From Candidatus Aquitaenariimonas noxiae (GTDB lineage Bacteria; Omnitrophota; Gorgyraeia; Aquitaenariimonadales; Aquitaenariimonadaceae), in the NCBI GenBank assembly GCA_002780005.1, contig PEWV01000018.1:842-50437 (forward strand): DNA of 49,596 nt, in the 5' to 3' direction. Shown here piece after piece: positions 2,141 to 19,431 of the stretch (its first letter is position 1; every line of letters begins with the position of its first letter). The position numbers and the translations under genes are program-made. The notes under the pieces were generated by a model, which worked only from the letters and a program-made list of their open reading frames with translations, was not told where the DNA came from and ran no database searches.

Positions 2141-5100
2141 CTACCACTTGACAATAATGGTTCCGCCCTTCTGCCATCCGCTATTAACGCCCGCGCGGTC
2201 TGTTGCGTAAAGATATAGATACTTTGGGGTTACGCCGCAAAAAGCAGACTTAAACATTACCTTCCATTGTACAACAAGGTCATTCCCTGAAAAAGTCGCC
2301 CTCGTATTCTGGCAATTTAATTTTACATAGCTATTTTCTATGACCTGGCCCTGCCCCGGATTGAAACCGCCAACCCACGCGCTATCTGAATTATCCCGCA
2401 GATAGAGTTTATTATTTACGCAATTGTAACGGAAATAGCCGCAATACAAACCGTTTACCCTGTAGTTTATCAAGAAAAAGCTGTCGGCCATATCTTTGGC
2501 TCCGTCAAAATCCGAGACTTTTGTAGTAAACGTGTACCATATGTTGGGTTTGAATAAGCCTGTCGAAGGAGTTACGGACACAGCGGACGGCGGGTAATGT
2601 ATTCTTTTATAATATCCCGTATGCTGGGGATCGTGCATAAACATCGGCCAGGGGTTGTGATCTGTTGTGTGCCTCGATTGACCCGGGACAAAACTCTTGC
2701 CGTCTTTATCCACGCAAAAAAGAGCATTGTAGGAATTAAATAATACTTCTAATTTATCATCGCCGTTTAAATCAGCTACCGCAGAACAGGCTTTGCCATA
2801 AACTGGTACGTCTGCCGCATGCCGCCAGATAAGCTGTCCATTTTGATTCAAGCAATAAAAATATTGGTCGTTTAAGTGAATTAATATTTTCATATCCTTA
2901 TCTCCGGCCATGTCAGACACAACAGGTGAAGAAACAGTATAGGTATCACCCCATACGCTATATTCCCATTTAACATTACCGTCTTTATCCAGACAACACA
3001 ACTTAGCATTACATTTGGGGTTGTGATCATTAAAAAATTTACTTACCGCAATTAAGATCTCCTGGCTGCCATCCTTGTTTACATCCGCGATTGCCGGTGA
3101 ATTATAGCACTCGTAATTATCGATTCCCTTGCGCCACTTCAAGACACCTTTATTATCAACGCAATAAAGCGTCTTGCCTGCCCAAAAAACTGTTTCCAAG
3201 GTTCCGTTATTATCCAGATCAGCTACCGCCATCGCTGAAGTTACGCAGCTTCCAGCCGGTGAAGGTAATTCATACTTCCATACAGCTTCAAAATCCTTAT
3301 TTAAACAATATAGCGTCCATTTTTCCGCTCCTGCGTGGTAGCTTAATTCTATAAATAATATCTCGAGTTTTCCGTCGGCATTTATATCCGCGAGTGCGGG
3401 CGAAGTAAAGATATAAGCCCTTTCGCTTGCGGGATCGGCATATAACTTTTTTATAACTTCTCCGTTCTTATTCATGCAATATAAGTTATATAAAGGTATC
3501 TGTCCTATCGTCCCCACGCAGCCGCCGACTATTATCTCCGGGCTACCATCTTTATTCAGATCTGCCACGACAGGAGTGATGCAGGGGCTGATAAAATCGT
3601 CCTTTTCCCACACTAACTTTCCTCTATTGTCAATACAGCAAAATTTACTATATATAGCTCCGCCAGATGTGCTTCGCTGTGCGGCTACTAATATTTCCAT
3701 CTTGCCATCACCGTTAATGTCGTATGCCACCGGAATAGTAGTAGAAGAAAGCCATTTAAACCGCGGCCCCAGATCATAGGACCAAACAAGCTGCGCGTCG
3801 GTATTTAGGCAATAAAGTATACCGTCTTGTGAGGAGGTTATTACTTCTATAGTTCCATTATTATCCAAATCTACTACTATGGCAGAACCCATAAGGTTAC
3901 CAGTTATTTCAAAAGGCCAATATTTGAATACACTGGTAAAGATATTATTAATAGTGCTGTAATTATTGGCTGTTACTGTCAGCCTGAAGCTTATATCATG
4001 CCCTGCAGGGCATTGCGGGCTCACAATAAACCTATAAGGATTATTTGCATTGCTTGCCTGGCTGCCATTAGTTATTATTCCAAAAGAGGCATTAGTCTGC
4101 TCTAGCGTTACATAGGGATCGCCGCATTCCAGCGTAGCAGATACGTTATAGAAATCACCATTCATTGCTTTAAGCGTAACAACTACTTGTATAGTTTCGC
4201 CGGGGTCTATGCGCCCGTCTTTATTTCCGTTAATATCTGTAAAGGTCGTGCCTGCTATTCCTATCTGCGGCCCGACATTAGTTGAGATCGATAGTTCCGG
4301 GTCTCCGAAAAGATTAAGCTCGTAATAACACCACCTCATACAGTCTTCATTTATCCTGTAAGCGTTATCCTCTTTTGAATCCTGGTTCATCTTTCCTATA
4401 TTCTTAATCCCTTCTCCTAAAAAAGCATCCCAGAATTCCCTATCGTAACGTTGTGAAGGGCCATCTGTGGATTCCCCTGTACCCCAACCATATCTTGCGT
4501 TCATAACGCACGCGAAGGCCCCGTTCTTTATAGTTGTGATCTTTTCGGCAAAGCACTCGTTGGTATCAAATGCCCCGGGAAGACAGCCTTGAGAATATAC
4601 AAAAAAAGAAGCAGTGTTGGTAAGCGCAGGCAGATCAGTTGTATGGAGTTTCATATCGTAAGTCTCATTAGCGTGGCCGAGATGGTTTATAATATGCACC
4701 CCTGAATTCATAATATTAATTAACTCGCTTTTGTTCCAATCGTACCCCGGGCTGTCATAAAGGGTGCGCGTATCAAACAATGCCGCGTATTGGGAATTTT
4801 CAAACCCTATTGTCGTATAACTATCCGCGCTTGAGCCAAGACGGATTTGTTCCATAGAATCCGTAGCATATTCCGCTGTCCCTCCGAATCCAAGATACTC
4901 GCCGACCATATGCACTTTTGTCAGATAACTGTTGCGGCAAGTTTCGTATGCTAAGGTTTTACCTACAAAATTCGATACTTCACCGGCTGTCGCAACCGGA
5001 GCCCTCCCGACAGAAACTTCCGCGTAAAGGTCTATGTCCCCTCCGCCTGCGCCGTCATTCGGCTCTCCGTATTTATTATTTCCGTTTCCGTTAAATGTCC

Positions 5101-6247
5101 CGTCCAGGCAGCCGTAATACATATCAACCGGCATGGTGTCCACGTCAGCATCACTGCCCGGCCATGACCTAACATAAAAAAGCCTTGGCGGGATTTTACT
5201 TTTATCGCCGCCTAAAAGCACATATCGAGTGCCATGATTAGAGTAGCAATCTTTTATAAAATTCCGTATTTTTTCCTGCGAGTCAACGCCTGTGTAGTAC
5301 GGATATATATCATTTTGAACGGTAAACATTTTTGCCGTCACGCCGCACGCTATCTTGCTGTTTATAAGATTCGTAAAAGTGTAAGTGCCTGCCGTATTTT
5401 TTAAATCATTTGTTGTTATAATAATATATTTATACTGCTCTGTAGCGGTTACGGCTTGCACATTAACCGGATAGGTACTCAATGTTTCCGGATTATCGAT
5501 AATAGAACGAATTTCATTTTGCAATGCCGGATTTGGTTTAATATCTACATTCTGACTTTGCGCATTAACGGCCGATTGAGACATGAGCACTGTCTCGACC
5601 TGAATTTCCATATCTTTGTAGTAAGCAATTTTTTTAGACTTAGGATAATACTCTAAAGGAATAAGGTTAATTAAAAGAATTGTATAGCCATGTTTTTTCT
5701 GCAAAAACGCATCGCCGCACGGCACTTCAGGGTAGACAATATCATAATTGTATATATCGGGATTCGGTTGGGCTGGTTTCAGTCTATCTTTTTGACTCAA
5801 AGGAGCGGGCCTTTGTGTAGGTTTAATCGAATATTCCCCGGTAATATTAACTTTTGGCCCAAAGATTACTTTAACACCCACTATTTTTTGTCCGTAAGGA
5901 ACAAGAAGTTTTACTGGCTTGAATGGCAATGATGGCGCTCCTGCATTGCCCCAAAGCACTAATCCCGGGATATAAACTTTATGGTATTTCCCGTTTGGCA
6001 CGGATAAAGGCGCAGCAAATGAACATTTAAAAGAATAAACTTTCTGGACAGCACCCTGAGCGCCAAGGGCTTGAACAGGCTGGTTATCAAAAACAGCGCG
6101 CGCCGTATTTCCGCTTTTCGTCCATTGCGTAGCTCCGACCTTCGCGGCGTCGGCATTGGAAATATAAGACACTACCAAAAATAGGCATAAAAAGACGGTT
6201 ATTAATAAAGCGTATAATGTTTTTTCTGCCTTATTCACCGTTTTCAT
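2141..6247 (-). CDS. Gingipain-family (C25) peptidase with beta-propeller repeats
   Basis: 1368 residues with an N-terminal signal peptide (hydrophobic residues about 10 to 29, then NADAA). The ATG at 6247 follows a GAGG ribosome site. A propeptide-like region (about 40 to 260) precedes the C25 domain (about 270 to 660). Candidate catalytic residues are His525 in HLGHANETY and Cys555 in SQGCLPGAFD. An Ig-like segment containing DINGNKDGRIDPGE follows at about 665 to 770. Next come roughly seven FG-GAP/PQQ-like repeats (patterns such as DLDNNGTIEV and DINGDGKMEIL), predicting a calcium-binding beta-propeller at about 780 to 1230. The C-terminal domain is unrecognised. No type IX sorting domain is visible, so export by the neighbouring type II system is possible but inferred. 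It lies 248 bp downstream of the giant protein gene. Confidence 0.88.
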   Translation of the reverse strand: MKTVNKAEKTLYALLITVFLCLFLVVSYISNADAAKVGATQWTKSGNTARAVFDNQPVQALGAQGAVQKVYSFKCSFAAPLSVPNGKYHKVYIPGLVLWGNAGAPSLPFKPVKLLVPYGQKIVGVKVIFGPKVNITGEYSIKPTQRPAPLSQKDRLKPAQPNPDIYNYDIVYPEVPCGDAFLQKKHGYTILLINLIPLEYYPKSKKIAYYKDMEIQVETVLMSQSAVNAQSQNVDIKPNPALQNEIRSIIDNPETLSTYPVNVQAVTATEQYKYIIITTNDLKNTAGTYTFTNLINSKIACGVTAKMFTVQNDIYPYYTGVDSQEKIRNFIKDCYSNHGTRYVLLGGDKSKIPPRLFYVRSWPGSDADVDTMPVDMYYGCLDGTFNGNGNNKYGEPNDGAGGGDIDLYAEVSVGRAPVATAGEVSNFVGKTLAYETCRNSYLTKVHMVGEYLGFGGTAEYATDSMEQIRLGSSADSYTTIGFENSQYAALFDTRTLYDSPGYDWNKSELINIMNSGVHIINHLGHANETYDMKLHTTDLPALTNTASFFVYSQGCLPGAFDTNECFAEKITTIKNGAFACVMNARYGWGTGESTDGPSQRYDREFWDAFLGEGIKNIGKMNQDSKEDNAYRINEDCMRWCYYELNLFGDPELSISTNVGPQIGIAGTTFTDINGNKDGRIDPGETIQVVVTLKAMNGDFYNVSATLECGDPYVTLEQTNASFGIITNGSQASNANNPYRFIVSPQCPAGHDISFRLTVTANNYSTINNIFTSVFKYWPFEITGNLMGSAIVVDLDNNGTIEVITSSQDGILYCLNTDAQLVWSYDLGPRFKWLSSTTIPVAYDINGDGKMEILVAAQRSTSGGAIYSKFCCIDNRGKLVWEKDDFISPCITPVVADLNKDGSPEIIVGGCVGTIGQIPLYNLYCMNKNGEVIKKLYADPASERAYIFTSPALADINADGKLEILFIELSYHAGAEKWTLYCLNKDFEAVWKYELPSPAGSCVTSAMAVADLDNNGTLETVFWAGKTLYCVDNKGVLKWRKGIDNYECYNSPAIADVNKDGSQEILIAVSKFFNDHNPKCNAKLCCLDKDGNVKWEYSVWGDTYTVSSPVVSDMAGDKDMKILIHLNDQYFYCLNQNGQLIWRHAADVPVYGKACSAVADLNGDDKLEVLFNSYNALFCVDKDGKSFVPGQSRHTTDHNPWPMFMHDPQHTGYYKRIHYPPSAVSVTPSTGLFKPNIWYTFTTKVSDFDGAKDMADSFFLINYRVNGLYCGYFRYNCVNNKLYLRDNSDSAWVGGFNPGQGQVIENSYVKLNCQNTRATFSGNDLVVQWKVMFKSAFCGVTPKYLYLYATDRAGVNSGWQKGGTIIVKW

Positions 6248-6495: not shown

Positions 6496-9400
6496 TTATA
6501 AGATTCGTTTAACTAATCGAATTATAGGCCGTAGCGCAAACCTTGTTATTTTTCTTAAAACGGGCTTGTTTCTAATATAATCCGCTATTATTGGTGAATG
6601 TCGGTAATAAAATTTTACAAAGGCCGTTCCGAAACTATTATTCATCAGATGCCGGTCCCTAAATTCACAAAGCGTAAGAACCTCTTCTGCCATAGGTGTT
6701 CCAAAAGCTGCTGTAGCTATGAAGCAGCTTCCTCCACTTCCGTCTCCACCTGAACCTCCGGCTATTCCTCCTAAAAGTCCTCCTAAGCCAAAGAAAGAGA
6801 GATGGTTTGTCTTTGCGATTATTCTATTCTCCTCCGGCAATACCACGCACTCGTAGACAGGGTTCCAGGCTGAACCGTCATAGTAGTATAGCCATAGGGT
6901 TTCTTCCTCTATGCCATCGGTATTGTCCACTTTTCCGTCATTATCCTCATCCTGATATGGCACAGTGATAACGATATATTTTTCAGGGCCTGCTGTTTTG
7001 CTTTCCAATTCTATTTCTCTATATATACCTATACCTTTTACGTTGGGATCCTGAGGGTCTGCCACCTCATTTGCTATTTCATCTTTTGACATTATTCTTA
7101 CCTTTACTCTATCATCGGCACTTAAACTGCCTACTGGCACGATGATCTCTGTACCGTCGCTGAGACGGGCTGTGTGAGGTTGGTCTTGTATTACTTTATC
7201 AGTCGCAGAATGCCCCTCAGCATTCAGAGTTTCTACGGAATCTGTTTTCTGGCCGGAGTTATCTATGGTAACAGTAATCGGCTGGGACGAGCATTCTAAG
7301 CCACCTACGGTAAACATGACAGCTTTAAGCGCGTAGGAACCGCCGTTAAGCAATTTGGTGGTATCAACGCTTATTGCATAAGGATATTCCTTTGATGAAC
7401 CCAGATCGATCCATTCTTCTTCATCTGCAGATTTACATCGATAAACGATATATTCAACCATCTTTGGCATATTAGACTCGGCAAGAAGCGTTAAGGCATT
7501 GCCTGATATTGTCTGGTTGTTTTCGGGTTTTAACATATTTACATAGAGCGCGTTAACGTTTGTCGCTTTTATTAGGAATGTTTCTACAAGTTTCCTGCCA
7601 TCGGTGAGCGCTGTTACTAATGCGGCCTTATAATACCCAGGATTTGTATAAACGAATTTGGCTTCAGGCGATGTGCTGGAACAATAATCTATTGTGGCAT
7701 TACCGTCAAAATCCCACATATATCCCTTGATTCCTCCGAGCTGGTTTCCGTTAAGAACGAATTTTGCCTCCAGCGGAGCGACGCCCTCCGTCGGGCTGGG
7801 TGTTATATCTAAAGCAGAAACAACCAAAGTATCATTCTTTAAAACCTTGATCTCTATTTCTTTTCTGGAAGAGATTTTCCTTTCATCTGTAACGATCAAA
7901 GACGCGTTATATACGCCTGCCTCATAGATAAATACTTCCTTTCTATTTGTAAACGAGGTTTTATCATATATGCCGTCTCCATTAAAATCCCATTCATAGC
8001 TTATTATTTTATAACCGGAATTAGTCTCGCAATCAAACTTAACCTTAAGAGGCGCCTGCCCTTTCTTTAGATCGGCATTTAATGTAAAATCCAGCGGAGA
8101 AGAACATTCGGCTGCCGTTACCAAGATCTCAGATGTCGCGCTTAAGCCATTGCTGCATACCGCCTCTACGAGAACCAAGTGGGCCCCTGCCAATGTAAAT
8201 GTTTTAACTACGTTGGCCATACGGGTTTCTTTATCATATACGCCGTCACCGTCAAAATCCCACCTGTAGAACAGGATTTCTTCATCGCTTTGCGGGCATA
8301 AGCAGGATACATTAAAGTTCACCCTAAGCGGTGTAGTACCGGTAAGCTTATCAGCTTCGAAGCTTTTTATTAACGGGCTATCGGGATTAGGATTCACAGT
8401 TACCAGTACTGTCCTTTCGACAACTAGGCCTTTATTGGTCATCGCCCTTAAAGTAGCAGGATAATCTCCTTTAGCAGTATAGGTATGCGAGGCATTTCCG
8501 CTCTCATTAGAGCTGTAATCCCATCTTCCTCTTCCGTCGAAGTCCCATTCATATTTGATAATGCTCCCTCCTGGTATACGAGCGGTAGCGGTAAACGCAA
8601 CCTCCAATGGCGCAGAACCTTCTTGCGGAATTGCAGAGACTTTTACGTCTATATCGGCTATATCTGTCTGTGGTGAGATTACCGTTATTGTCTTTGTTGC
8701 CGGAGCGCTTTGGAAGTTGTCTTTATTTGTTGCGACGAGCGTTACTTCATAAGTGCCTATATAATCAAAGGGATGCGTGGGGTTCTGTTCTGTTGAGGTT
8801 TGACCGTCCCCGAATGACCATTTACATTTTGTGCCTCCGGTGCCGGCAGGGTCAGTAATAACTGCTTTAAATTTAACTTTCAGAGGGGCATAACCTGACT
8901 CTGTGTCACATTCGATGCTTGCCGTAGGATTTATATCCACATTCCCTGCTTCCATTTTTACAGTCTGCGAATCGATCAGTTTTCCATCAGATACGCTGAA
9001 AGTAACATTATATACACCTGCCTGAGTATAATCAGGAGTCCAGGTAAACGTCCGGTTTTTAAAGGCCGCACCCCGCGGTAAATTGCTTGCTGAATATGTC
9101 AAGGCGTCACCTTCGGGATCGGTAGCTATGATTGTGAACTTTAGCACCTGGCCTTCATTGACTGTCTTATCTTCTATAAGGTCAAGAACGGGAGAATAAT
9201 TCATAGAATTCAAAGTAAGAGCTTGCACCTCGGAAGTTTTCTCTGATTCATTTCCTGCCGCGTCATAAGCAGACACCTGGTAGGCATAGGTAGTGCCCGG
9301 CTGGAGTTCAATATCTGAATATGATAAAGATGCGGTCTCGGCAATAATTATTTCATCTCTATAAATTACATATCCTGTAACGCCCATATTATCTATTGAG

Positions 9401-12400
9401 GCCGACCAATTTAAGTTTATTTGTGAAGAAGAAAGCGGTTCGGCCTGAAGGTTTGCGGGTATAGAAGGTGGTTCGGTATCCTGAACCGGACTTTCAACAT
9501 ACTCATAAGGCCCTATATCGCAGGCGCTGCCTTGAGGCCTGCTCGTGCCGTCAAAATCTGATTCGGCAAGGCGTGTTTTAGCGATAACACTTCCGGCATC
9601 AACGGCCGGACTGGCTGAGGAGAGATGGAAATTTCTGCTTATTGCGCTCACAAATTGAGGATCAGCTATTAAAGAGGTTTGTTCCGGAGGAGTTGACAGC
9701 TTTGTTTTGTAGTATAAATTATGGTCGCCGTTCCGGAGCATATCGCCCACTTTATTTTTATCAAAAACTATATCTGTATCGCAGAATATATTGTGAGATA
9801 TTATTGCTGATGCTGTTCCGCTGCCTTGGAAATCAACACTTCCGTTGAAACTCAAGGAATTGATTAATTTATACCCCGGATTCCCCTTGCCTATAAAGTT
9901 AAAGCTGTAGTTATAAGGGTTATCGTAAGCAATGCAATTAATCAGCGTAGCGTTGCTCCAGATCGCGTAACCATTCTTTCCGTTATCATAGGATTTACAA
10001 TTTATCAAAGTCGTATTATTAGGCTTTATATCAAATCCGCTGTTAGAAAAGTTGTAGGCGGTGCAATTCCTTAATATATGGTAGCTCTCCTCGCCCTGGA
10101 TACTGATCGCATCTTCATTATAATCATAAGTCCCCCGGGCAACCACGCAATTTTCGAGCAAAGTATTTTCCTGGCCGTCCTTATAGGGCCATCCGATAAA
10201 AATACCGTTTTCTGTATGATGGATATAGCAGTTGCGCGCAATAAATCTATTGCCAGTTTTGATCAAGGTGCCATCGCTCTCATGTAAGCCCTGTATTAGT
10301 ATCGCCCTGAACGTATTTTTAATTTCGACGTCCTTGACCAGGATATTCTCTTTTCCGGAACAGGCTTCGATGCCTATACCGCCATTTTTGTTAGCCCTAA
10401 TCAACTTACCATTAGAATCGTGATAATAATATACTGAACCAACACCATCAATAATGAAACCTTCGATGATAACGTTGTTTTGCGGTGAAATATTCTTCCA
10501 GGAAGCTCCGCCGCCATATGAATACCCGGCATTACTTATATACGTCGGTCCTTGTATTACTGCCTTACCCTTTTCTGCAGACTTAAATATAATAGGCTCA
10601 TCAGGCGTTCCGGAATCTGTGAAAAGTACTTGTTCTACATAAACCCCTTCTTCCACAATAACCCCGTCTCCCGGCTGGAGAAGCCCGGTATTGGTGGCCC
10701 TATTAATAGTATTAAATGGCTTGCTGAAACTACCGTCATTGTTATCAGAGCCTCTTGAAGCAGAAACATAGTATGTCATTCCTGTAATAGTATACGTGTC
10801 CCCCGGATCCCAAAGTTCCTTAACAACAATTGTTACAGTTTCAACATCGGTTAGGGTTCTATCGCTTACTGTAAAAGCCACATCATAACTTCCTACCTGC
10901 TCATAAGTAGGCCTCCAACTAAAGGTTTGGCTTTTAAAAGTTGCACCTTGCGGTAACTTGTCAGCTGAATAGGTTAGCGTATCTCCGTCAGGCTCTGTTG
11001 CGCTTATTGTGAATTCCAGCAGTATTCCTTTATAAACGGCCTTATTACCTATAGCTTCAAACACAGGAGGTCTATTTGTGTTATTTACTGTAATGGTAAT
11101 AGTCTCTGAACTATTTAAGGTCCCGTCAGTTGCGCTAAAGGTTATTTTGTATGTTCCTGCCTGGTCATAGGTTGGTGTCCAGGAGAATGTTTTTCCGTCA
11201 AATGCAGCGCCTATTGGCAGATCTGCGGCTGTAATTGTTACTTTATCGCCATCCGGGTCTGTTGCTGACACGGTGAAGGATAAAAGAGCATTCTCATTTA
11301 CAGATTTATTGCCTATGGGGCTAAGGACTGGCGATCTATTCACATTATTCACCACGATGGTGATAGTCTCTGAACTATTTAAGGTCCCGTCAGCTGCGCT
11401 AAAGGTTATTTTGTATGTTCCTGCCTGGTCATAGGTTGGTGTCCAGGAGAAGACTTTTCCGTCAAATGCAGCGCCTATTGGCAGGTCTGAGGCTGTGATT
11501 GTTACTTTATCGCCATCCGGGTCTGTTGCTGACACGGTGAAGGATAAAAGAACATTCTCATTTACAGACTTATTGCCTATGGGGCTAAGCGCAGGAGGTC
11601 TGTTTACATCTCCTACACTTATGGTACTGACCTCTGAATCATTTAGATTTCCGTCTGTTACACCAAAGGTTATTTCATAACTTCCTGTCTGGTCATAAGT
11701 AGGCCTCCATGAGAAGGTCTGGCCTGATAAGGTCGCTCCAGCCGGCAAGCCTGAAGCTGTATAAGTTAAAGCATCACCTTCGGTATCTGTGGCGCTTAAG
11801 GAAAATGCTAATATATCATTTTCGTTCACGATTTTATTCCCGATAGCGGCAAGCACCGGCGCGTCATTAACGGGCGCGATAGAAATGCTTACCGTGGCAA
11901 TATTAGAATCTAGTTGTCCGTCACTGACCTTAAAGGTAAAAGAATCTGTTCCGTTATAGTCTGCCTTAGGCGTATAAGTGGCGGTATTGCCTTGCAACTG
12001 GGCCTCCCCATTACCAGGCGGTACTACTAAGCTATAGGTAAGCGGATCATTATCCGGGTCAGAAGCCACTAAGGTAATAACTACTGCCTTATCTTCATCA
12101 GTAACGGCTCCGGCATCTTGTGCTTTCGGAGGCTGATTCACATTGCCCACAAGGATAGTTATGGTTTCTGATACGCTGAGAGTGCCGTCGCTGGCTGTAA
12201 AGGTAACTCCATAATTGCCGGCCTGGCTAAAATCAGGAGTCCAACGGAAAAGTAACCCGTCAAAGGTTGCGCCGGCAGGTAATTCGGAAGAACTAATAGT
12301 TACACTGTCGTTATCCGCATCGCTAGCAGTGACATTAAAGGTTAATAATTCATTTTCGTTTATATTCTTGTTGCCTATAGCAGCCAACACAGGCGCGCGA

Positions 12401-15400
12401 TTAGTGTTATTAACTGTTATGGTAATAGACTCAGAGTCTGTACCTCCATTGCCATCGTTTACAGTAAAGGTAACTGGATAACTCTCGGCTTGGGTATAAT
12501 CCGGGACCCAAACAAAATCTCCGGTAGGAGAATTAAGGCTGGCACCGTTAGGCAAAACGTCAGCAGCGTAAGTCAATATATCGCTGTCAGGATCTGTAGC
12601 GTAAAGGGTAAACCTAAGCTCTGAGGCTTCACTCACAGATCGGTTACCTATCGTTGTCAGTACCGGCGCGTCGTTGACCGGCGTAATAGATATACTTACC
12701 GTGGCAATATTTGAATTTTCATGGCCGTCATTGGCTATAAAAGTAAAACTAATGCTGCCATTGTAGTTAGTAGCCGGTATATAAGTAAGGTTCGGCGCGC
12801 TGCCGCTCAAAGCCCCATGGGGCGGTGGAGTTACTATTGTGTAGCTAAGTACGTCACCATCGGCGTCAGATGCGCTAAGCGTTATATTCTTGGCAATATC
12901 TTCATCGGTAGTTACAGACTGGTCATTTGCTATCGGCGCTCTGTTTACCTTGTTTACCGTAATAGTTATCGCCTCGGAATCATTTAAGCTTCCGTCAGTT
13001 ACGACAAAGGTTATGCTGTGTGTTCCTACCTGTTCAAAAGTCGGTGTCCAGGAAAATGCCCCTGTAGACGCATTAAGGCTTGCGCCGGCAGGTAGTTTGT
13101 CTGCCGAATATGTAAGTGGGTCGCCATCCGCATCTGTGGCGGATATGGTGAACGATAACAAGGAATTCTCATTAACTGATTTATTCCCGATCGCGCCAAG
13201 CACAGGCGCCCTGTTTACATTATTCACTGTAATGGTGATATCTTCAAAGTCTATATCAATCCCGTCTGTTACTTGGAAATGCACTCCTGCATATGTGCCT
13301 GCCTGGTTATAGTTCGGCGTCCAGGAAAATACCCTCGTAGACGCATCAAAGCTTGCGCCGGCAGGCAGGTTGCTTGCCGAATATGTCAGCGGATTGCCAT
13401 CCGCATCTGTGGCGGATATGGTGAACGATAATAAAGAACCTTCATCAACTGATTTATTTCCAATCGCCCCAAGCACAGGCGGAGAATTGCCGCTGGCCGG
13501 AAGTATTGTGACTTGCGCGGATCTTCCGCTGCCGGTTGCTGTCCCATCATAACCCTGGACAGTGCATTTCCAGATCTCGCCGACAGTCGTTTTATCCGCA
13601 GTAACGGTGTTTGTTATAAGATCAGTCTGCTGCGTGTTATTTTTATACCATGTGTATTTGTAAGTCACAGGATCGCCGTCCGCATCAGTAGAACCACTGG
13701 CTGAAGCGACCAGATCGGCATTGTCAGGCGGCGCGCTCGGGCTTATTGTTACCGTAGTAGGCTGCGTAGGCGCCGCATTGGATATTGTCTTTGTAGCGCT
13801 AATAGAAGGGCCATCCGAGGTTCCGTCATTAGGCGTAACTGTGCATTTCCAGGTTTGCCCTTTCGTAGTTAGAGACGCAGAGACCGTATTTGTGGTTAAA
13901 CTTGCCTGTAAAACATTATTCAAATACCACGCATATTTATAAGTAATAGGGTCACCTTCCAGATCCGTCGAACCGCTTGGCTGGGTGACCAAATTATTTG
14001 TGGTATAGGCCGTAGCCGGACTTATAGTAAGTGTGGGCATGGTAGGCGAATTGTTACTGGTAGACAGCGTATCAATGTACGCTACAGCGCTACTCTGGCC
14101 ATCCGGAACATTCATTGGAAAGGTATCATTGGATACATAACCTTTACCGTCGTACAAAAGAGAGACGCAATCGAGAGTACCTGTAGAACCGCTCCTATAG
14201 TCGCTAACCTCCACAAACCAGCGCTTGGTGGCGCTAGGCGGCAGATACGCAAGTCCATCGGTAATATCGCATGAAGTATTGATATCTGGATAGTTACCCC
14301 CATCCATCCAATATTGGTCCTTGCTCCAGTTGGGATTTGCCGGGGCGCCGCATCCCACCCTCAGATGTAACTGCCCGCGGCTGGGATGGCGGATATTTAT
14401 CCGCAACCGGGCTTGCGGCTGATAACCAATGCGGTCTACCATCTTGTATCCGCCATGGGAGGCAAACACAAATGGATAGGATAACCATATATATCCGTCT
14501 CCGCTCCACCCGCTTCCCCAGGAATTGAACATCTTAAACGCGCCGTATCTTATTTCTCCGTTGGCATCGGTATATTGGCGGGTATCATCATATCCCACTA
14601 TCGTTACCGCATGACCTCCTCTAGCGCTATAGCCGGGCCTCCACCCGTCATGCACGTCATTTCCTCCGTTTTCCGGAATGTTCCCATACGTATCAATACC
14701 GATCACAAAAATATCACCGCTATTAAGTTGGTTTTTCGCGTTTTGCAGACCCGATGACCACAGAGAAACGTAAGAATAGCTTGTTCCTCGATATGGCATA
14801 GCGGCTTCGCACTGCACCTGATTCGGCCAAGTGTACACATCCGAAGGATTATAAACATCCATCGTTGCGCAACCCTTATCCATGATCACACTAAAAGCAT
14901 CTCCGAAATATGCGCCACTATCGGAACCGCCGTTGATCTGGTTATAGAGAAACAGTCCGCTGAAGAGATGGTTATTTGTAGTCACACCCCACCCATGCTC
15001 CTTGTTTTCCTGGTATGTCTTATATCCGTATCCTACCGCAAACCCAACGCAACTGCTGCCGTTTTGGCTTATTGCCCGAGGCATGTTCGAAGAAAGATCA
15101 AGAGATGTGCCTGGAGTTACAGCCACTATAATGCTTTTAGTAACCTCACCTTCCGCGTCGCGTGCCTTAAAGTTTAAAGTGTATTCCACTCCGGATTGGC
15201 CGCTTGAAGGTGTAAATGTAAATATTCTCGTTGCCTGGTCGACCGCTGCCCCGGCAGGAAGGCTTGGGTCGGTATATGTTATAGGGTTATTCTCAGGGTC
15301 GGTAGCTTTAACGTTAAGGGTAAGCGTATAGTTTACACAGACAAAATAAGTGTTGTAAGCCTTTCTATCAAAAGCCGGAACGGCTGCTTCGGCAGAAGCC

Positions 15401-15474
15401 TGCAGAAGCAAAAATGCTTCAGCCATTAATAGCGCGCATATCGTCCATTTTATAAACCTTCTTCCAATACCCAT
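6496..15474 (-). CDS. Giant secreted multidomain protein: papain-like peptidase, cadherin/He_PIG array, beta-helix, PKD domains, CFI-type tail
   Basis: 2992 residues. A signal peptide (about 1 to 30) leads to an Ig-like domain, then a C1A papain-type peptidase (about 125 to 345) with Cys142 in NGSSCVGF, His288 in GGHAVTIVGYDD and Asn317 in FNSWGSGWSG. Gln137 is a candidate oxyanion-hole residue. Ten cadherin-like/He_PIG repeats of about 88 residues follow (about 663 to 1555; typical phrase PIGNKSVNEN). A right-handed parallel beta-helix resembling polysaccharide lyases ends in an SPAVDAGS...DIGPYEY motif (about 1560 to 1985). Next come Fn3 (about 1990 to 2085), one more He_PIG repeat, five PKD domains (about 2180 to 2640), an Ig-like and a ZU5-like region. 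A GGSGGDGSGG linker and the CFIATAAFG tail (about 2912 to 2992) finish it. The start lies two bases after the upstream stop. It is probably cell-surface or extracellular; protease and lyase activities are predicted, not shown. Confidence 0.9.
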   Translation of the reverse strand: MGIGRRFIKWTICALLMAEAFLLLQASAEAAVPAFDRKAYNTYFVCVNYTLTLNVKATDPENNPITYTDPSLPAGAAVDQATRIFTFTPSSGQSGVEYTLNFKARDAEGEVTKSIIVAVTPGTSLDLSSNMPRAISQNGSSCVGFAVGYGYKTYQENKEHGWGVTTNNHLFSGLFLYNQINGGSDSGAYFGDAFSVIMDKGCATMDVYNPSDVYTWPNQVQCEAAMPYRGTSYSYVSLWSSGLQNAKNQLNSGDIFVIGIDTYGNIPENGGNDVHDGWRPGYSARGGHAVTIVGYDDTRQYTDANGEIRYGAFKMFNSWGSGWSGDGYIWLSYPFVFASHGGYKMVDRIGYQPQARLRINIRHPSRGQLHLRVGCGAPANPNWSKDQYWMDGGNYPDINTSCDITDGLAYLPPSATKRWFVEVSDYRSGSTGTLDCVSLLYDGKGYVSNDTFPMNVPDGQSSAVAYIDTLSTSNNSPTMPTLTISPATAYTTNNLVTQPSGSTDLEGDPITYKYAWYLNNVLQASLTTNTVSASLTTKGQTWKCTVTPNDGTSDGPSISATKTISNAAPTQPTTVTISPSAPPDNADLVASASGSTDADGDPVTYKYTWYKNNTQQTDLITNTVTADKTTVGEIWKCTVQGYDGTATGSGRSAQVTILPASGNSPPVLGAIGNKSVDEGSLLSFTISATDADGNPLTYSASNLPAGASFDASTRVFSWTPNYNQAGTYAGVHFQVTDGIDIDFEDITITVNNVNRAPVLGAIGNKSVNENSLLSFTISATDADGDPLTYSADKLPAGASLNASTGAFSWTPTFEQVGTHSITFVVTDGSLNDSEAITITVNKVNRAPIANDQSVTTDEDIAKNITLSASDADGDVLSYTIVTPPPHGALSGSAPNLTYIPATNYNGSISFTFIANDGHENSNIATVSISITPVNDAPVLTTIGNRSVSEASELRFTLYATDPDSDILTYAADVLPNGASLNSPTGDFVWVPDYTQAESYPVTFTVNDGNGGTDSESITITVNNTNRAPVLAAIGNKNINENELLTFNVTASDADNDSVTISSSELPAGATFDGLLFRWTPDFSQAGNYGVTFTASDGTLSVSETITILVGNVNQPPKAQDAGAVTDEDKAVVITLVASDPDNDPLTYSLVVPPGNGEAQLQGNTATYTPKADYNGTDSFTFKVSDGQLDSNIATVSISIAPVNDAPVLAAIGNKIVNENDILAFSLSATDTEGDALTYTASGLPAGATLSGQTFSWRPTYDQTGSYEITFGVTDGNLNDSEVSTISVGDVNRPPALSPIGNKSVNENVLLSFTVSATDPDGDKVTITASDLPIGAAFDGKVFSWTPTYDQAGTYKITFSAADGTLNSSETITIVVNNVNRSPVLSPIGNKSVNENALLSFTVSATDPDGDKVTITAADLPIGAAFDGKTFSWTPTYDQAGTYKITFSATDGTLNSSETITITVNNTNRPPVFEAIGNKAVYKGILLEFTISATEPDGDTLTYSADKLPQGATFKSQTFSWRPTYEQVGSYDVAFTVSDRTLTDVETVTIVVKELWDPGDTYTITGMTYYVSASRGSDNNDGSFSKPFNTINRATNTGLLQPGDGVIVEEGVYVEQVLFTDSGTPDEPIIFKSAEKGKAVIQGPTYISNAGYSYGGGASWKNISPQNNVIIEGFIIDGVGSVYYYHDSNGKLIRANKNGGIGIEACSGKENILVKDVEIKNTFRAILIQGLHESDGTLIKTGNRFIARNCYIHHTENGIFIGWPYKDGQENTLLENCVVARGTYDYNEDAISIQGEESYHILRNCTAYNFSNSGFDIKPNNTTLINCKSYDNGKNGYAIWSNATLINCIAYDNPYNYSFNFIGKGNPGYKLINSLSFNGSVDFQGSGTASAIISHNIFCDTDIVFDKNKVGDMLRNGDHNLYYKTKLSTPPEQTSLIADPQFVSAISRNFHLSSASPAVDAGSVIAKTRLAESDFDGTSRPQGSACDIGPYEYVESPVQDTEPPSIPANLQAEPLSSSQINLNWSASIDNMGVTGYVIYRDEIIIAETASLSYSDIELQPGTTYAYQVSAYDAAGNESEKTSEVQALTLNSMNYSPVLDLIEDKTVNEGQVLKFTIIATDPEGDALTYSASNLPRGAAFKNRTFTWTPDYTQAGVYNVTFSVSDGKLIDSQTVKMEAGNVDINPTASIECDTESGYAPLKVKFKAVITDPAGTGGTKCKWSFGDGQTSTEQNPTHPFDYIGTYEVTLVATNKDNFQSAPATKTITVISPQTDIADIDVKVSAIPQEGSAPLEVAFTATARIPGGSIIKYEWDFDGRGRWDYSSNESGNASHTYTAKGDYPATLRAMTNKGLVVERTVLVTVNPNPDSPLIKSFEADKLTGTTPLRVNFNVSCLCPQSDEEILFYRWDFDGDGVYDKETRMANVVKTFTLAGAHLVLVEAVCSNGLSATSEILVTAAECSSPLDFTLNADLKKGQAPLKVKFDCETNSGYKIISYEWDFNGDGIYDKTSFTNRKEVFIYEAGVYNASLIVTDERKISSRKEIEIKVLKNDTLVVSALDITPSPTEGVAPLEAKFVLNGNQLGGIKGYMWDFDGNATIDYCSSTSPEAKFVYTNPGYYKAALVTALTDGRKLVETFLIKATNVNALYVNMLKPENNQTISGNALTLLAESNMPKMVEYIVYRCKSADEEEWIDLGSSKEYPYAISVDTTKLLNGGSYALKAVMFTVGGLECSSQPITVTIDNSGQKTDSVETLNAEGHSATDKVIQDQPHTARLSDGTEIIVPVGSLSADDRVKVRIMSKDEIANEVADPQDPNVKGIGIYREIELESKTAGPEKYIVITVPYQDEDNDGKVDNTDGIEEETLWLYYYDGSAWNPVYECVVLPEENRIIAKTNHLSFFGLGGLLGGIAGGSGGDGSGGSCFIATAAFGTPMAEEVLTLCEFRDRHLMNNSFGTAFVKFYYRHSPIIADYIRNKPVLRKITRFALRPIIRLVKRIL
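11101..11588 (-). repeat. Recent tandem duplication of one 264-bp He_PIG module
   Basis: The segments at 11101-11324 and 11365-11588 lie exactly 264 bp (88 codons) apart. By eye they differ at about nine of 224 bases. The other modules of the array are related mainly at protein level, so this pair is the youngest duplication in the giant gene. Confidence 0.9.
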
Positions 15475-15476
15475 TT

Positions 15477-16583
15477 TTATAACCCTTCCTCTACTTTCTC
15501 CGGCTTCTTTTCATCTGAAATCAGGCCTGTAGGATAATCAAATTTTCCAGGTTCTCCCACGTAAAAATTTTCTGTCCACTCTCTACCCTCGCTGTCCTTT
15601 ATTGTCAAAGTTACCGAAGGCGGGCTCGTGGTAATAGCATCATCAGAAACATCTATTAAGAATCTGGCGTTGAATCGGCCTTTCGCCTCAACAAAATCCA
15701 GCTTTGCTTCACCCTCTAATACTGTTACAGAGGCATTATCAGCTGTTGCAGTCACGGTTAAACCTTTAGCCTTTCCATTCCCTTGATTATCCAAATATAC
15801 GGTAAACGCCACTTTCTCTCCAGGGCCGGCCACGTTATCAAGATTGCCTTTTGTCCCGGGAGTAACGCCATCATCCACTTTTATGTCAGCAAACCGTATT
15901 CTTGGCGCTGCTTTTACTTCTACATGAACCGGCACTACTGCTATCTCCTCTTTATTTAGACCTAATATTATTAAATTGGTGCTATTACTTCCTATCTCCA
16001 GGTTTGAAGCAACGGCAGCCAGTTTGACATCCAGGGTTTCACCCGGCCCTAAAATCCCGTAATAAGGAAATTGTATAAGCCACGGCGCGCCCCTGAATAA
16101 TCCTGTTTTTTCTAAGTCCTCTTCAGCCGGCTTTTCGGGAAGCTTATCTTTCTTGTAGGCAATTAATTGCTCTACTGCCTGATCGATCTCGGCGGGTGTA
16201 TCTGCTTTATCGACCTTGTAAATGTTAAAGAGGACCTTTCCAGGACCATCATTAATAAGCGTGAATTCCGAGCTTTTTCTTCCGCCTTCTTCAACTTCTA
16301 TTTCAACTTCAGACGGCTCTGTCCTTAAACGGGCAGATAAAACCGCTTCCTGCTCAGCAGGCGCTTCTGCTTCCGGAGTTTCCTGTAAAGCAGGTTTTGC
16401 CTCTTTGGGTTTATCGACTTTAGGTCCCTTAACCGGCTCCTCTTCTTTGATCAATATCTCCTCAGCCTTTTCTTTCTTTAACAACTCGGGCTTCTGCCTT
16501 GACATAAAATGGATAGAGGCTAGGGCGACTATCCCTGCAAAAATAATCATAGCACCTATAATTAAAATCCTCTTTCCCTTCAT
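15477..16583 (-). CDS. Single-pass membrane protein with Ig-like/CARDB-like extracytoplasmic domains
   Basis: 368 residues from the ATG at 16583. A 379-residue version from 16616 would overlap gspC and read through a poly-G run, so the shorter start is preferred. One transmembrane helix (about 5 to 25) follows a short KGKR cytoplasmic start. Next is a charged Pro/Glu/Lys linker (about 30 to 85), an Ig-like beta domain (about 90 to 215) and a CARDB-like domain (about 225 to 350; GPGEKVAFTVYLDNQGNG). The layout mirrors GspC: inner-membrane anchor, flexible linker, periplasmic domains. It is encoded between gspC and the giant protein with a two-base gap to the latter. A role in handling that cargo is attractive but only inferred from position. 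No catalytic motif seen. Confidence 0.8.
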   Translation of the reverse strand: MKGKRILIIGAMIIFAGIVALASIHFMSRQKPELLKKEKAEEILIKEEEPVKGPKVDKPKEAKPALQETPEAEAPAEQEAVLSARLRTEPSEVEIEVEEGGRKSSEFTLINDGPGKVLFNIYKVDKADTPAEIDQAVEQLIAYKKDKLPEKPAEEDLEKTGLFRGAPWLIQFPYYGILGPGETLDVKLAAVASNLEIGSNSTNLIILGLNKEEIAVVPVHVEVKAAPRIRFADIKVDDGVTPGTKGNLDNVAGPGEKVAFTVYLDNQGNGKAKGLTVTATADNASVTVLEGEAKLDFVEAKGRFNARFLIDVSDDAITTSPPSVTLTIKDSEGREWTENFYVGEPGKFDYPTGLISDEKKPEKVEEGL

Positions 16584-16588
16584 TTCCG

Positions 16589-16597
16589 CCCCCCCCC
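16589..16597 (-). other. Poly-G tract (G9) overlapping the ribosome-binding region of the membrane protein gene
   Basis: Nine C on the plus strand (16589-16597), followed by seven T (16598-16604), give A7G9 just upstream of the ATG at 16583. The tract lies between the gspC stop and this start, where the Shine-Dalgarno sequence should be. Length changes would shift ribosome-site spacing, or frame if the upstream start at 16616 is used. Confidence 0.8.
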
Positions 16598-16602
16598 TTT
16601 TT

Positions 16603-17361
16603 TTAATACATAACAAATTTCAGATCCTTGACCGATCCCTGACGCAGGATCTTTACATAAATTACAGGTTTATTTTTAACTTTTTCATAAATTTTAAAAC
16701 AGGATGGGATGCTTACTATGGACTCGCCATTTACCGCAAGAACTATGTCTTTCTCTTTCAAACCAGCTTTATTAAGCATGGGTTTATCTTTAAAAGATTC
16801 TATCTTAATGCCCTTGAACTTTCCTTCATCTATGTAAGGCAAAAATTTTCCTTGCGAAAAAATATGGTTGGAATTCTTCACTTCCTGTATCAGAAGGTCT
16901 TTATCGATGTGCTTTTCACTCTTAGAAACTGATGTTACCGCATCGTCTTCCTGGGTGGTAAGGGTAATTTCGACATCTTCACATCTCAAGATCACGCTGC
17001 CTAACTGGATATCCACCAACTTAAATCCTTCTATGGTGTCTCCTGCGGCGTAGGCATTCTTTTCGGATGTGCGTTCATTTCTGATGATCGCCCGCGGGTC
17101 CCGGTAGCCGCCAAGGACTGTAGCTAACAGCTTTAATTTTGGGATGTTAATGGAAACTTCGTTTTTTTCCTTAGGGGAGACTACAGATGTGGTGGGCACA
17201 TAGCCCATCTGGGTCAACTTCTCTTTACCGGCCTTTTCTTCAGTCGAGCGCCCTATACATGAGATACTTTTTTGTGTATAGAGGACAGAATTGAAGACCG
17301 AAATAAAAAGAAGAAGAAGCCCCATTACTATTAATATTATAAAGACATTTACTCTTTTCAT
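16603..17361 (-). CDS. gspC: Type II secretion system protein C (GspC-like) with PDZ domain
   Basis: 252 residues with the GspC layout. A short cytoplasmic N-terminus and one transmembrane helix (about 6 to 28) lead to a periplasmic linker. The homology-region domain (about 75 to 136) contains LKLLATVLGG, RAIIRN and AAGDTIEGFKLVDI, and a PDZ domain (about 165 to 250) includes AGLKEKDIVLAVNG. In type II secretion, GspC links the inner-membrane platform to the outer-membrane secretin GspD and helps choose substrates. The start ATG follows a GAGGTAG site. It is the first gene after the c-di-GMP riboswitch and terminator, and the first of a run ending in large secreted proteins. No other secretion genes except gspE are in the window. 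Confidence 0.83.
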   Translation of the reverse strand: MKRVNVFIILIVMGLLLLFISVFNSVLYTQKSISCIGRSTEEKAGKEKLTQMGYVPTTSVVSPKEKNEVSINIPKLKLLATVLGGYRDPRAIIRNERTSEKNAYAAGDTIEGFKLVDIQLGSVILRCEDVEITLTTQEDDAVTSVSKSEKHIDKDLLIQEVKNSNHIFSQGKFLPYIDEGKFKGIKIESFKDKPMLNKAGLKEKDIVLAVNGESIVSIPSCFKIYEKVKNKPVIYVKILRQGSVKDLKFVMY

Positions 17362-17483: not shown

Positions 17484-17517
17484 AAAAAAACCCTATTTTA
17501 CCATCCGTAAAATAGGG
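17484..17517 (-). terminator. Intrinsic terminator of the riboswitch expression platform
   Basis: On the minus strand an 11-bp perfect stem (CCCTATTTTAC with GTAAAATAGGG) closes a five-base GGATG loop. Seven T follow at 17484-17490. It begins a few bases after the 3' strand of aptamer P1, the usual arrangement of a transcription-terminating riboswitch. The next gene, gspC, starts 122 bp further on. Confidence 0.92.
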
Positions 17518-17521
17518 CCGA

Positions 17522-17628
17522 TTGTAACTGCTCTTAATTTGGCAGCCCTGCCGCCGTATCCTGTCTTATTTGAGGACTTAGGCCGTAGGCTTTGCGCCCC
17601 ACCCTTTCGGATGGTTTACCTTTTACAA
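17522..17628 (-). promoter_or_regulatory. c-di-GMP-I (GEMM) riboswitch aptamer
   Basis: The minus strand shows class-defining parts in order. P1 is TTGTAA (17623-17628) paired with TTACAA (17522-17527). Next come AAAGGTAAACC, a P2 hairpin CCATCC-GAAA-GGGTGG with a GNRA loop, and the conserved CGCAAAGCC block. A tetraloop receptor-like CCTAAG...TACGG follows, then a P3-side GGCAGGGCTGCC. This order matches the GEMM-I consensus, whose ligand is cyclic di-GMP. The 8-mer ACCATCCG (17608-17615) is the exact reverse complement of CGGATGGT in the terminator (17500-17507), giving a plausible antiterminator. The predicted logic is ligand bound, terminator formed, gspC and downstream genes off. The aptamer call is strong; the switching direction is inference. 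Confidence 0.92.
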
Positions 17629-17667
17629 ATTTAAGTATTTAAAAGAACCTTTTTATCTCTATTATAA

Positions 17668-17695
17668 GTATAGCCTATAATCAAGGAAAAGTAAA
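17668..17695 (-). promoter_or_regulatory. Sigma-70-type promoter ahead of the riboswitch
   Basis: TTTACT (17690-17695) and TATACT (17668-17673) are separated by 17 bases. A TATAAT at 17661-17666 is an alternative -10. The start would fall about 30 bases before the aptamer, in the gap after the gspE stop, so the riboswitch operon can be transcribed without gspE. Confidence 0.6.
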
Positions 17696-17730: not shown

Positions 17731-19431
17731 TTACTCTTTAGTTACGCGTATTACTTCTTCTGGCGTTGTAATGCCCATGAGGATCTTCTCCCACCCATCC
17801 ATGCGAAGGGTGCGCATACCAAGCGAAATAGCCTTCTTTCGTATCTGGTCTGCCGAAGATTTTTTTAAGACGAGTTCTTCTATAGGTTTGGTTAATAGCA
17901 TAATTTCATAAATCGCTGTCCTGCCCTTATAGCCGGTAAACTTGCAGTATTCGCACCCCTTGCCTGCGTAAAACTTCTTACCCTTGCTTTTTTCTATCGG
18001 GATGCCTAACTCCTTTTTTACGCTTTTTTCAAGTTTAATTTCTTTCTTGCACTTCTTACATATGATCCTTACAAGGCGTTGCGCTACAACGGCGTTGATA
18101 GAACTCGCGGCCAAAAATGGTTCTACTGACATATCCAACAGGCGCGTCATGGCTCCGGGCGCATCATTTGTATGGATTGTGCTGAAAACCAAATGGCCGG
18201 TAAGGGCTGCTCGTATGGTAATTTCGACTGTCTCATAATCCCTGACTTCTCCTACCATCATTATGTCCGGGTCATGCCTAAGCATGCTCCTCAAGCCGGT
18301 CGCAAAATCAAGTCCTATTTTTGGCTGAACTTGAATTTGCGTGATCCCTTTCATGCGGTATTCTATAGGGTCTTCGATCGTAATAATTTTTTTCTCTTTA
18401 GTATTTATCCTGTTCAGGCACGCGTAAAGCGTCGTGGTCTTACCGCTCCCGGTAGGCCCGGTTACAAAAATTATACCGTGCGGCTTCTTTATCATCGATT
18501 CGATTAATTTTAGGTCCTGCGGAAGGAACCCAAGGCCTTCTAGGTCAAAGAGCATCTTTGTCGGGAGAATTCTTATGTCAACGCCTTCTCCGTGAGCGGT
18601 AGGCAGGACAGAAACCCTTAAATCTAATTCTTCATTTTTTACTTTTATTTTTATTCTTCCGTCTTGGGGAAGGCGGCGTTCAGCTATGTTAAGATTTGCC
18701 ATGATTTTTATTCTTGAAACAATCGCTGACTGGAAATGTTTGATCGCATGCGGGATCGTCATATCATAAAGGAGCCCATCAATTCTATATCTCACAATTA
18801 ATTCATCTTCATATGGTTCTATGTGAATATCTGTAGCCCTATCATTATACGCTTGAAATAGTATCTGATTTACAAAATTGATCATTGATGCATCTTCAGT
18901 CAATTCACCGATATCTTTGGTTTCTTGCAAAGAAAATCTCATTTCTTCTGATGCGCCGCCGCTTTCGGCTATCATTTTTTCTATAGTGTCGGCCCCCACC
19001 CCGTAATAGGTTCTTATTGCTTCCAGTATATCTATTTCCCCGGCTAAAACAGGTTCTATATCGCAGGATAAGAGTAGCTTTAAATCATCTAAAGTATGAA
19101 TATCCGTGGGATCTGTAACGGCCACGATCAAAGTATTGCCTTTTTCTTTTATAGGCATAAGTTTATAATGGCAGGCAAATTTGGCGGACACCCTTTTAAT
19201 AACAGAAGGGTCTATTTTAAGTTCTTTGATCTTTGTATATTTAACATTAAGATATTTTGCAAGAACGGGCATCAGTTTCTCTTCTGTCAAAAAGCCCAAT
19301 TTTAGCAGGATCTTATCCAGAGATTCATGCGTCTTCTTCTGCTCTTGAATGGCTTCTTTCAGCTGATCTGTAGCAATTAATTTACTATCAACTAACATTT
19401 CGCCAAGTGAAATATTTTTTTTAATACCCAT
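17731..19431 (-). CDS. gspE: Type II secretion / type IV pilus assembly ATPase (GspE/PilB family)
   Basis: 566 residues. The N-terminal domain (about 7 to 150) resembles the MshEN/T2SSE-N fold: SLGEMLVDSKLI and a second SLDKILLKLGFL motif with LxxxL spacing. Such domains bind c-di-GMP in some relatives, but the usual first-motif Arg and Gly are replaced by Ser here. The ATPase core has Walker A GPTGSGKT (325-332), an Asp box EDPIEY, Walker B DPDIMMVGEVRD (387-398) and a His box GHLVFSTIHTND. A zinc tetracysteine site is at C458, C461, C493 and C496. The protein would power secretion pseudopilus assembly from the cytoplasmic face. GspE and PilB are hard to tell apart; gspC next door favours GspE. 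It has its own promoter and a GAGG ribosome site. Confidence 0.88.
   Translation of the reverse strand: MGIKKNISLGEMLVDSKLIATDQLKEAIQEQKKTHESLDKILLKLGFLTEEKLMPVLAKYLNVKYTKIKELKIDPSVIKRVSAKFACHYKLMPIKEKGNTLIVAVTDPTDIHTLDDLKLLLSCDIEPVLAGEIDILEAIRTYYGVGADTIEKMIAESGGASEEMRFSLQETKDIGELTEDASMINFVNQILFQAYNDRATDIHIEPYEDELIVRYRIDGLLYDMTIPHAIKHFQSAIVSRIKIMANLNIAERRLPQDGRIKIKVKNEELDLRVSVLPTAHGEGVDIRILPTKMLFDLEGLGFLPQDLKLIESMIKKPHGIIFVTGPTGSGKTTTLYACLNRINTKEKKIITIEDPIEYRMKGITQIQVQPKIGLDFATGLRSMLRHDPDIMMVGEVRDYETVEITIRAALTGHLVFSTIHTNDAPGAMTRLLDMSVEPFLAASSINAVVAQRLVRIICKKCKKEIKLEKSVKKELGIPIEKSKGKKFYAGKGCEYCKFTGYKGRTAIYEIMLLTKPIEELVLKKSSADQIRKKAISLGMRTLRMDGWEKILMGITTPEEVIRVTKE

Follow-up and report, generated by a model that had tools for sequence, protein, structure and literature searches.

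A candidate c-di-GMP-I OFF riboswitch with an expression platform built on the P2 hairpin in Candidatus Aquitaenariimonas noxiae

The Cd1 riboswitch of the Clostridioides difficile flagellar operon, which has a c-di-GMP-I aptamer, is a characterised transcriptional OFF switch (PMC9262584). Two other riboswitches with the GEMM-I fold also control transcription: the cGAMP-responsive pilM GEMM-Ib riboswitch of Geobacter metallireducens and Bc2 of Bacillus thuringiensis. Both are ON switches, and the pilM terminator is made of strands of the aptamer itself (PMC9262584, PMC4933901). Descriptions of the GEMM riboswitches studied so far present P2 and P3 as a scaffold that is conserved and preformed, the mobile part being P1 or the 3' strand (PMC9262584). 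The literature we searched gave no description of a platform based on P2; older papers on the GEMM motif and on cGAMP switches are partly covered, so an earlier description is possible. The same search gave no relevant paper on terminators of c-di-GMP riboswitches in connection with type II secretion, nor on riboswitches or c-di-GMP in Omnitrophota.

We have analyzed a 49,596 nt stretch of the genome of Candidatus Aquitaenariimonas noxiae, here called the window. All its features mentioned below are on the minus strand. A c-di-GMP-I (GEMM-I) aptamer is found at 17538–17630, between a gspE/pilB-type ATPase gene (17731–19431) and a gspC-like gene (16603–17361). It matches the RF01051 covariance model over its full length (positions 1–87) with 70.9 bits and an E value of 5e-12, the gathering score being 35 bits. 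Its P2 hairpin (17599–17614, CCAUCC-GAAA-GGGUGG in the Rfam alignment and in the folds) is capped by a GNRA tetraloop, aligned as GAAA, as is usual in the family. By its sequence the aptamer is a member of the c-di-GMP-I family. In the alignment, the position equivalent to Vc2 G20 is a G at 17619, just 5' of the [C/U]AAA leading into P2; we have placed the register from the J1/2-P2 boundary given in PMC6274999. A G at this selectivity position is found in c-di-GMP binders, and an A gives cGAMP selectivity (PMC6456294). The predicted ligand is c-di-GMP, and the genome has five GGDEF matches. A promoter-like site, TTTACT-17-TATACT, is located upstream of the aptamer (17667–17695); it comes from a consensus scan and is weak, with 9 of 12 positions matched.

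The gspC-like gene is the first one past the terminator and starts about 120 nt after its T tract. It codes for a protein with a PDZ domain, whose GspC scores are below the curated cut-offs: 74.9 of 150 and 65.1 of 101.6 bits (NCBIfam), 21.2 of 27 (Pfam). We call it gspC-like on account of a weak similarity and its synteny with the ATPase gene; it is not a confident member of the GspC family. Its end overlaps the gene for a 379 amino acid protein which belongs to no Pfam family (15477–16616). The following gene (6496–15474) starts right after that one, its product has 2992 amino acids, with Ig, PKD and cadherin repeats and a weak match to papain-like peptidases. Further downstream, a gene at 2141–6247 codes for a 1368 amino acid protein of the gingipain type (Peptidase_C25). 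The repeat protein and the gingipain-type protein may be secreted cargo belonging to the same operon or region. The ATPase has a predicted N-terminal c-di-GMP-binding domain of the MshEN type (66 bits with Pfam PF05157; 56.3 bits, above the cut-off, with NCBIfam NF053729), so c-di-GMP might act on the secretion machinery through both a protein and an RNA.

The intrinsic terminator (17489–17519) is a hairpin with 13 pairs and a 5 nt loop, GGAUG, as obtained from the folds. It ends in a tract of seven T (17484–17490), whose first two residues also pair with the GG at the foot of the stem. A preliminary description of this DNA had proposed that 17608–17615, in P2, is the exact reverse complement of 17500–17507, in the terminator, with further pairs beyond one mismatch. 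The complementarity is indeed exact: ACCAUCCG (17615–17608) pairs with CGGAUGGU (17507–17500), and each of them occurs only once in the window. ACCAUCCG consists of the P2 5' arm, CCAUCC, plus one flanking nucleotide on either side. CGGAUGGU spans the whole 5 nt loop of the terminator, together with one nucleotide of the 5' arm before it and two of the 3' arm after it. The further pairs also exist. After a small internal loop (AA 17607–17606 against A 17508), a second strand, AGGGUGGGGC (17605–17596), which is the P2 3' arm plus GGC, forms 10 pairs, four of them G-U, with GCCCUAUUUU (17518–17509) of the terminator 5' arm. The 8-mer accounts for only half of this alternative pairing: The complete antiterminator has 18 bp, and in it both P2 arms pair with the 5' arm and loop of the terminator (17500–17518).

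The antiterminator uses up both P2 arms, so it and the ligand-binding fold are mutually exclusive. The terminator, on the other hand, begins about 19 nt downstream of the aptamer: In the folds it coexists with the aptamer, which only the antiterminator excludes. This is the arrangement of an OFF riboswitch, and the exclusive antiterminator recurs in relatives. We consider it likely that this locus is a transcriptional c-di-GMP-I OFF switch of the gspC operon, with P2 as the basis of its expression platform. The proposed mechanism is as follows. Without ligand, the 5' arm and loop of the terminator in the growing transcript would invade P2 to form the 18 bp antiterminator, and the polymerase would continue into gspC. 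With c-di-GMP bound, P2 would be locked in the aptamer, its GNRA loop docked on P3; the terminator would then be free to fold, and transcription would end at the T tract. Ligand binding requires the P2 tetraloop contact (PMC9262584) and P2 is incompatible with the antiterminator, so the ligand should free the terminator. The aptamer, the terminator, the pairing and its specificity across the class are shown directly by the analysis; from the mutually exclusive structures we infer the direction of control, and we also infer the ligand and the co-transcriptional timing.

We have estimated how often such a pairing is expected by chance. When the terminator is shuffled, an exact 8 nt run appears in 2.2% of cases; when P2 and terminator are swapped among 59 switches of the same class, it appears in 3.2%. 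Of 3422 swaps, only 22 (0.6%) reach the stability of the full duplex (−22.3 kcal/mol). The window P2 is the best of the 59 P2 hairpins for the window terminator, and few switches have a P2-terminator duplex as strong as that of the window copy. As figures for a single locus, these are modest: Little weight can be put on the 8-mer by itself and more on the full pairing, and the strong evidence comes from the pattern seen throughout the class.

Of 197 genomes of the same class, which belongs to Omnitrophota, 175 have aptamers of the c-di-GMP-I family. The first genomes gave a sample of 117 switches, and further genomes one of 99. From these we have retained the switches whose terminator, located by a simple home-made script, is separate from the aptamer: 59 in the first set and 65 in the second. 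The statistic is the duplex energy between P2 and the terminator 5' half, for the parts belonging to each switch and for parts swapped between switches. In the first set, the average is −12.2 for the switch's own parts and −10.0 (SD 0.38) for swapped ones; in the second set, the corresponding values are −12.3 and −10.2 (SD 0.34). None of 20,000 permutations is as low in either case. The second set was gathered when the first result was known, and the same statistic was applied; it is therefore a replication. The P3/P1-3' strand shows no excess pairing with the terminator in either set (59 and 65 switches), and we have rejected the aptamer 3' strand as a general antiterminator.

For the dissection of this pairing, both sets were pooled and P2 was collapsed to 99 unique sequences. 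Two combinations are switch-specific, both with a z value of −4.9 and no permutation among 20,000 as low: the P2 3' arm with the terminator 5' arm, and the P2 5' arm with the terminator loop. The crossed arm controls give z values of −1.9 (532 of 20,000 permutations, a slight tendency) and −0.6, and the P3 strand gives −0.7. Related switches are only partly independent, but the result is unchanged after collapsing identical P2 sequences. As in the window, pairing between the terminator 5' arm and the P2 3' arm is seen in other Omnitrophota switches, such as L001, L269, L274, L281 and L328; in several of these switches, the P2 5' arm also pairs with the terminator loop. Examples of strong pairing are L269 (21 pairs), L281 (CACUUG with CAAGUG), L275 (pairing through a GUAA tetraloop) and L328. 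In switches picked for strong pairing, several standard pair types are found at most of the paired positions; this is an illustration, and the evidence is the swap test. Among the loci taken from relatives, which have limited flanks, no gspC switch of the P2 type was found, so the window locus has no direct orthologue for testing. A search of genome contigs gave no gspC relatives either.

Outside Omnitrophota, a small sample of 25 switches with separate terminators, chosen by a sequence-pattern search of other records, shows no excess of pairing between P2 and terminator (−7.65 for own parts, −7.59 for swapped ones). Pairing of the 3' strand with the terminator shows a weak tendency in these 25 switches (904 of 20,000 permutations). 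One of them, from Candidatus Aerophobetes (L148), looks exceptional: Its P2-terminator duplex has 12 bp, and its P2 is the best of the 25 for its terminator.

Several other explanations of the window locus have been considered. The pairing might be due to chance, to similar hairpins or to a terminator copied from P2, with no regulatory use, but we find this quite improbable. The exact 8-mer alone is expected in 2–3% of cases, and a copied hairpin would give the pairing between the P2 3' arm and the terminator 5' arm for free. The specificity of the loop is important here, because copying does not explain its pairing with the P2 5' arm, which is equally specific. Nor does copying account for the lack of excess in the small sample from other phyla. 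Very improbable, in our opinion, is an ON switch, in which ligand binding would favor read-through. The class does contain terminators made from the aptamer's own 3' strand, also in the same genome, and pilM and Bc2 are ON switches. The window terminator, however, lies past the aptamer and is compatible with it. A mechanism identical to the proposed one, with 3',3'-cGAMP as the ligand, also seems very improbable: GEMM-Ib aptamers are close variants within the same family, but position 17619 is G, not A.

A more serious objection comes from the order of folding. We have calculated nearest-neighbor energies at 37 °C, which leave out tertiary contacts. In the minimum free energy structures of the growing chain, P2 is retained until the 3' end reaches 17502. 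The antiterminator is the optimal structure when the 3' end is at 17501–17492, about 10 nt, by 3–5 kcal/mol over most of this span; for example, at 17500 it has −43.6 kcal/mol, against −39.0 with P2 kept. The 8-mer thus makes the antiterminator competitive in the window copy, and it acts late. With a complete terminator 3' arm, the state with P2 and terminator (−49.0) is more stable than the antiterminator (−44.3) by 4.7 kcal/mol. OFF control therefore rests on co-transcriptional kinetics. The antiterminator needs nucleotides up to 17501–17500, which probably leave the polymerase only at about the time when the T tract is reached. Direct-path barriers from the P2-kept state to the antiterminator are about 10–20 kcal/mol and depend strongly on the path allowed; those at the upper end of this range would be too slow. 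Kinetics are the weak point of the OFF reading in the window copy. The locus might instead be a constitutive attenuator: P2 and the terminator would always form first, the antiterminator would come too late, and transcription would terminate or leak whatever the ligand. The high barriers, the final stability of the terminator, and the probability of 0.82 with which P2 is kept at the point where the terminator 5' arm and the greater part of the loop have emerged agree with this explanation. On the other hand, the pairing is switch-specific across the class, and the window duplex is among the strongest. We consider a constitutive attenuator unlikely, with a small but real chance of being correct.

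The order of folding has also been examined in other members of the class. Just before the terminator 3' arm appears, at least eight P2 nucleotides are in the antiterminator in 13 of 58 switches, and the mean number is 2.9 for own parts and 0.9 (SD 0.26) for swapped ones. All 19 members examined favor P2 plus terminator once the transcript has its full length, so equilibrium folding alone is an inadequate predictor; earlier, the antiterminator wins in most of them. This order, antiterminator first and terminator later, is the one needed by a kinetic OFF switch, and it agrees with what is described for Cd1 (PMC9262584). The window copy is among the less favorable members in this respect. Unlike in the window, the antiterminator of several Omnitrophota switches is favored while the terminator 3' arm is still entirely absent; in L001 and L274 it is favored earlier than in the window copy. 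The downstream genes of the other Omnitrophota switches also differ from those of the window.

These genomes contain other aptamers of note. In the genome of Candidatus A. noxiae, a sister c-di-GMP-I aptamer (L006, C27:9551–9629) has an ON layout and precedes a large exported protein: A single genome may use the c-di-GMP signal in both directions. The same genome has two c-di-GMP-I aptamers within 1 kb, L001 (C69:4101–4185), with a strong P2-type antiterminator followed by a short exported protein, and L003 (C69:4936–5028), directly before a putative exported peptidase. In L067, L050, L058, L082 and L096, a terminator-like CUUUAUCGGC-U(n) is complementary to the aptamer 5' strand GCCGAUAAAG and encloses the whole aptamer, possibly a further ON-type platform. 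L078, of the same class, has A at the position equivalent to G20 (GGACAAACC) and is a candidate cGAMP-type aptamer.

In summary, the preliminary description had read the locus as an OFF switch in which ligand-induced P2 formation frees the terminator. This reading is supported by the exclusive structures and by the switch-specific pairing in related genomes. For Omnitrophota, we favor on balance a platform common to the lineage, in which the 5' arm and loop of the terminator would open the whole P2 hairpin, including its tetraloop. If so, the P2 GNRA hairpin, usually taken as a fixed scaffold, would be the moving part, and at the window locus high c-di-GMP would lower the expression of a secretion component and of very large repeat proteins. 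The many separate examples in Omnitrophota make the idea of a P2 switch directly testable.

Cd1 is among the closest known systems. In Cd1, as proposed here, aptamer and terminator can coexist, and they compete with a transiently stable antiterminator (PMC9262584). The difference is in the strand used: The Cd1 antiterminator takes the 3' end of the aptamer (G147-C87, C148-G86), while that of the window takes both P2 arms. The P3/P1-3' strand does not act as antiterminator in the most stable folds calculated for the window RNA. The window switch would thus have a variant expression platform, based on P2 instead of the aptamer 3' end.
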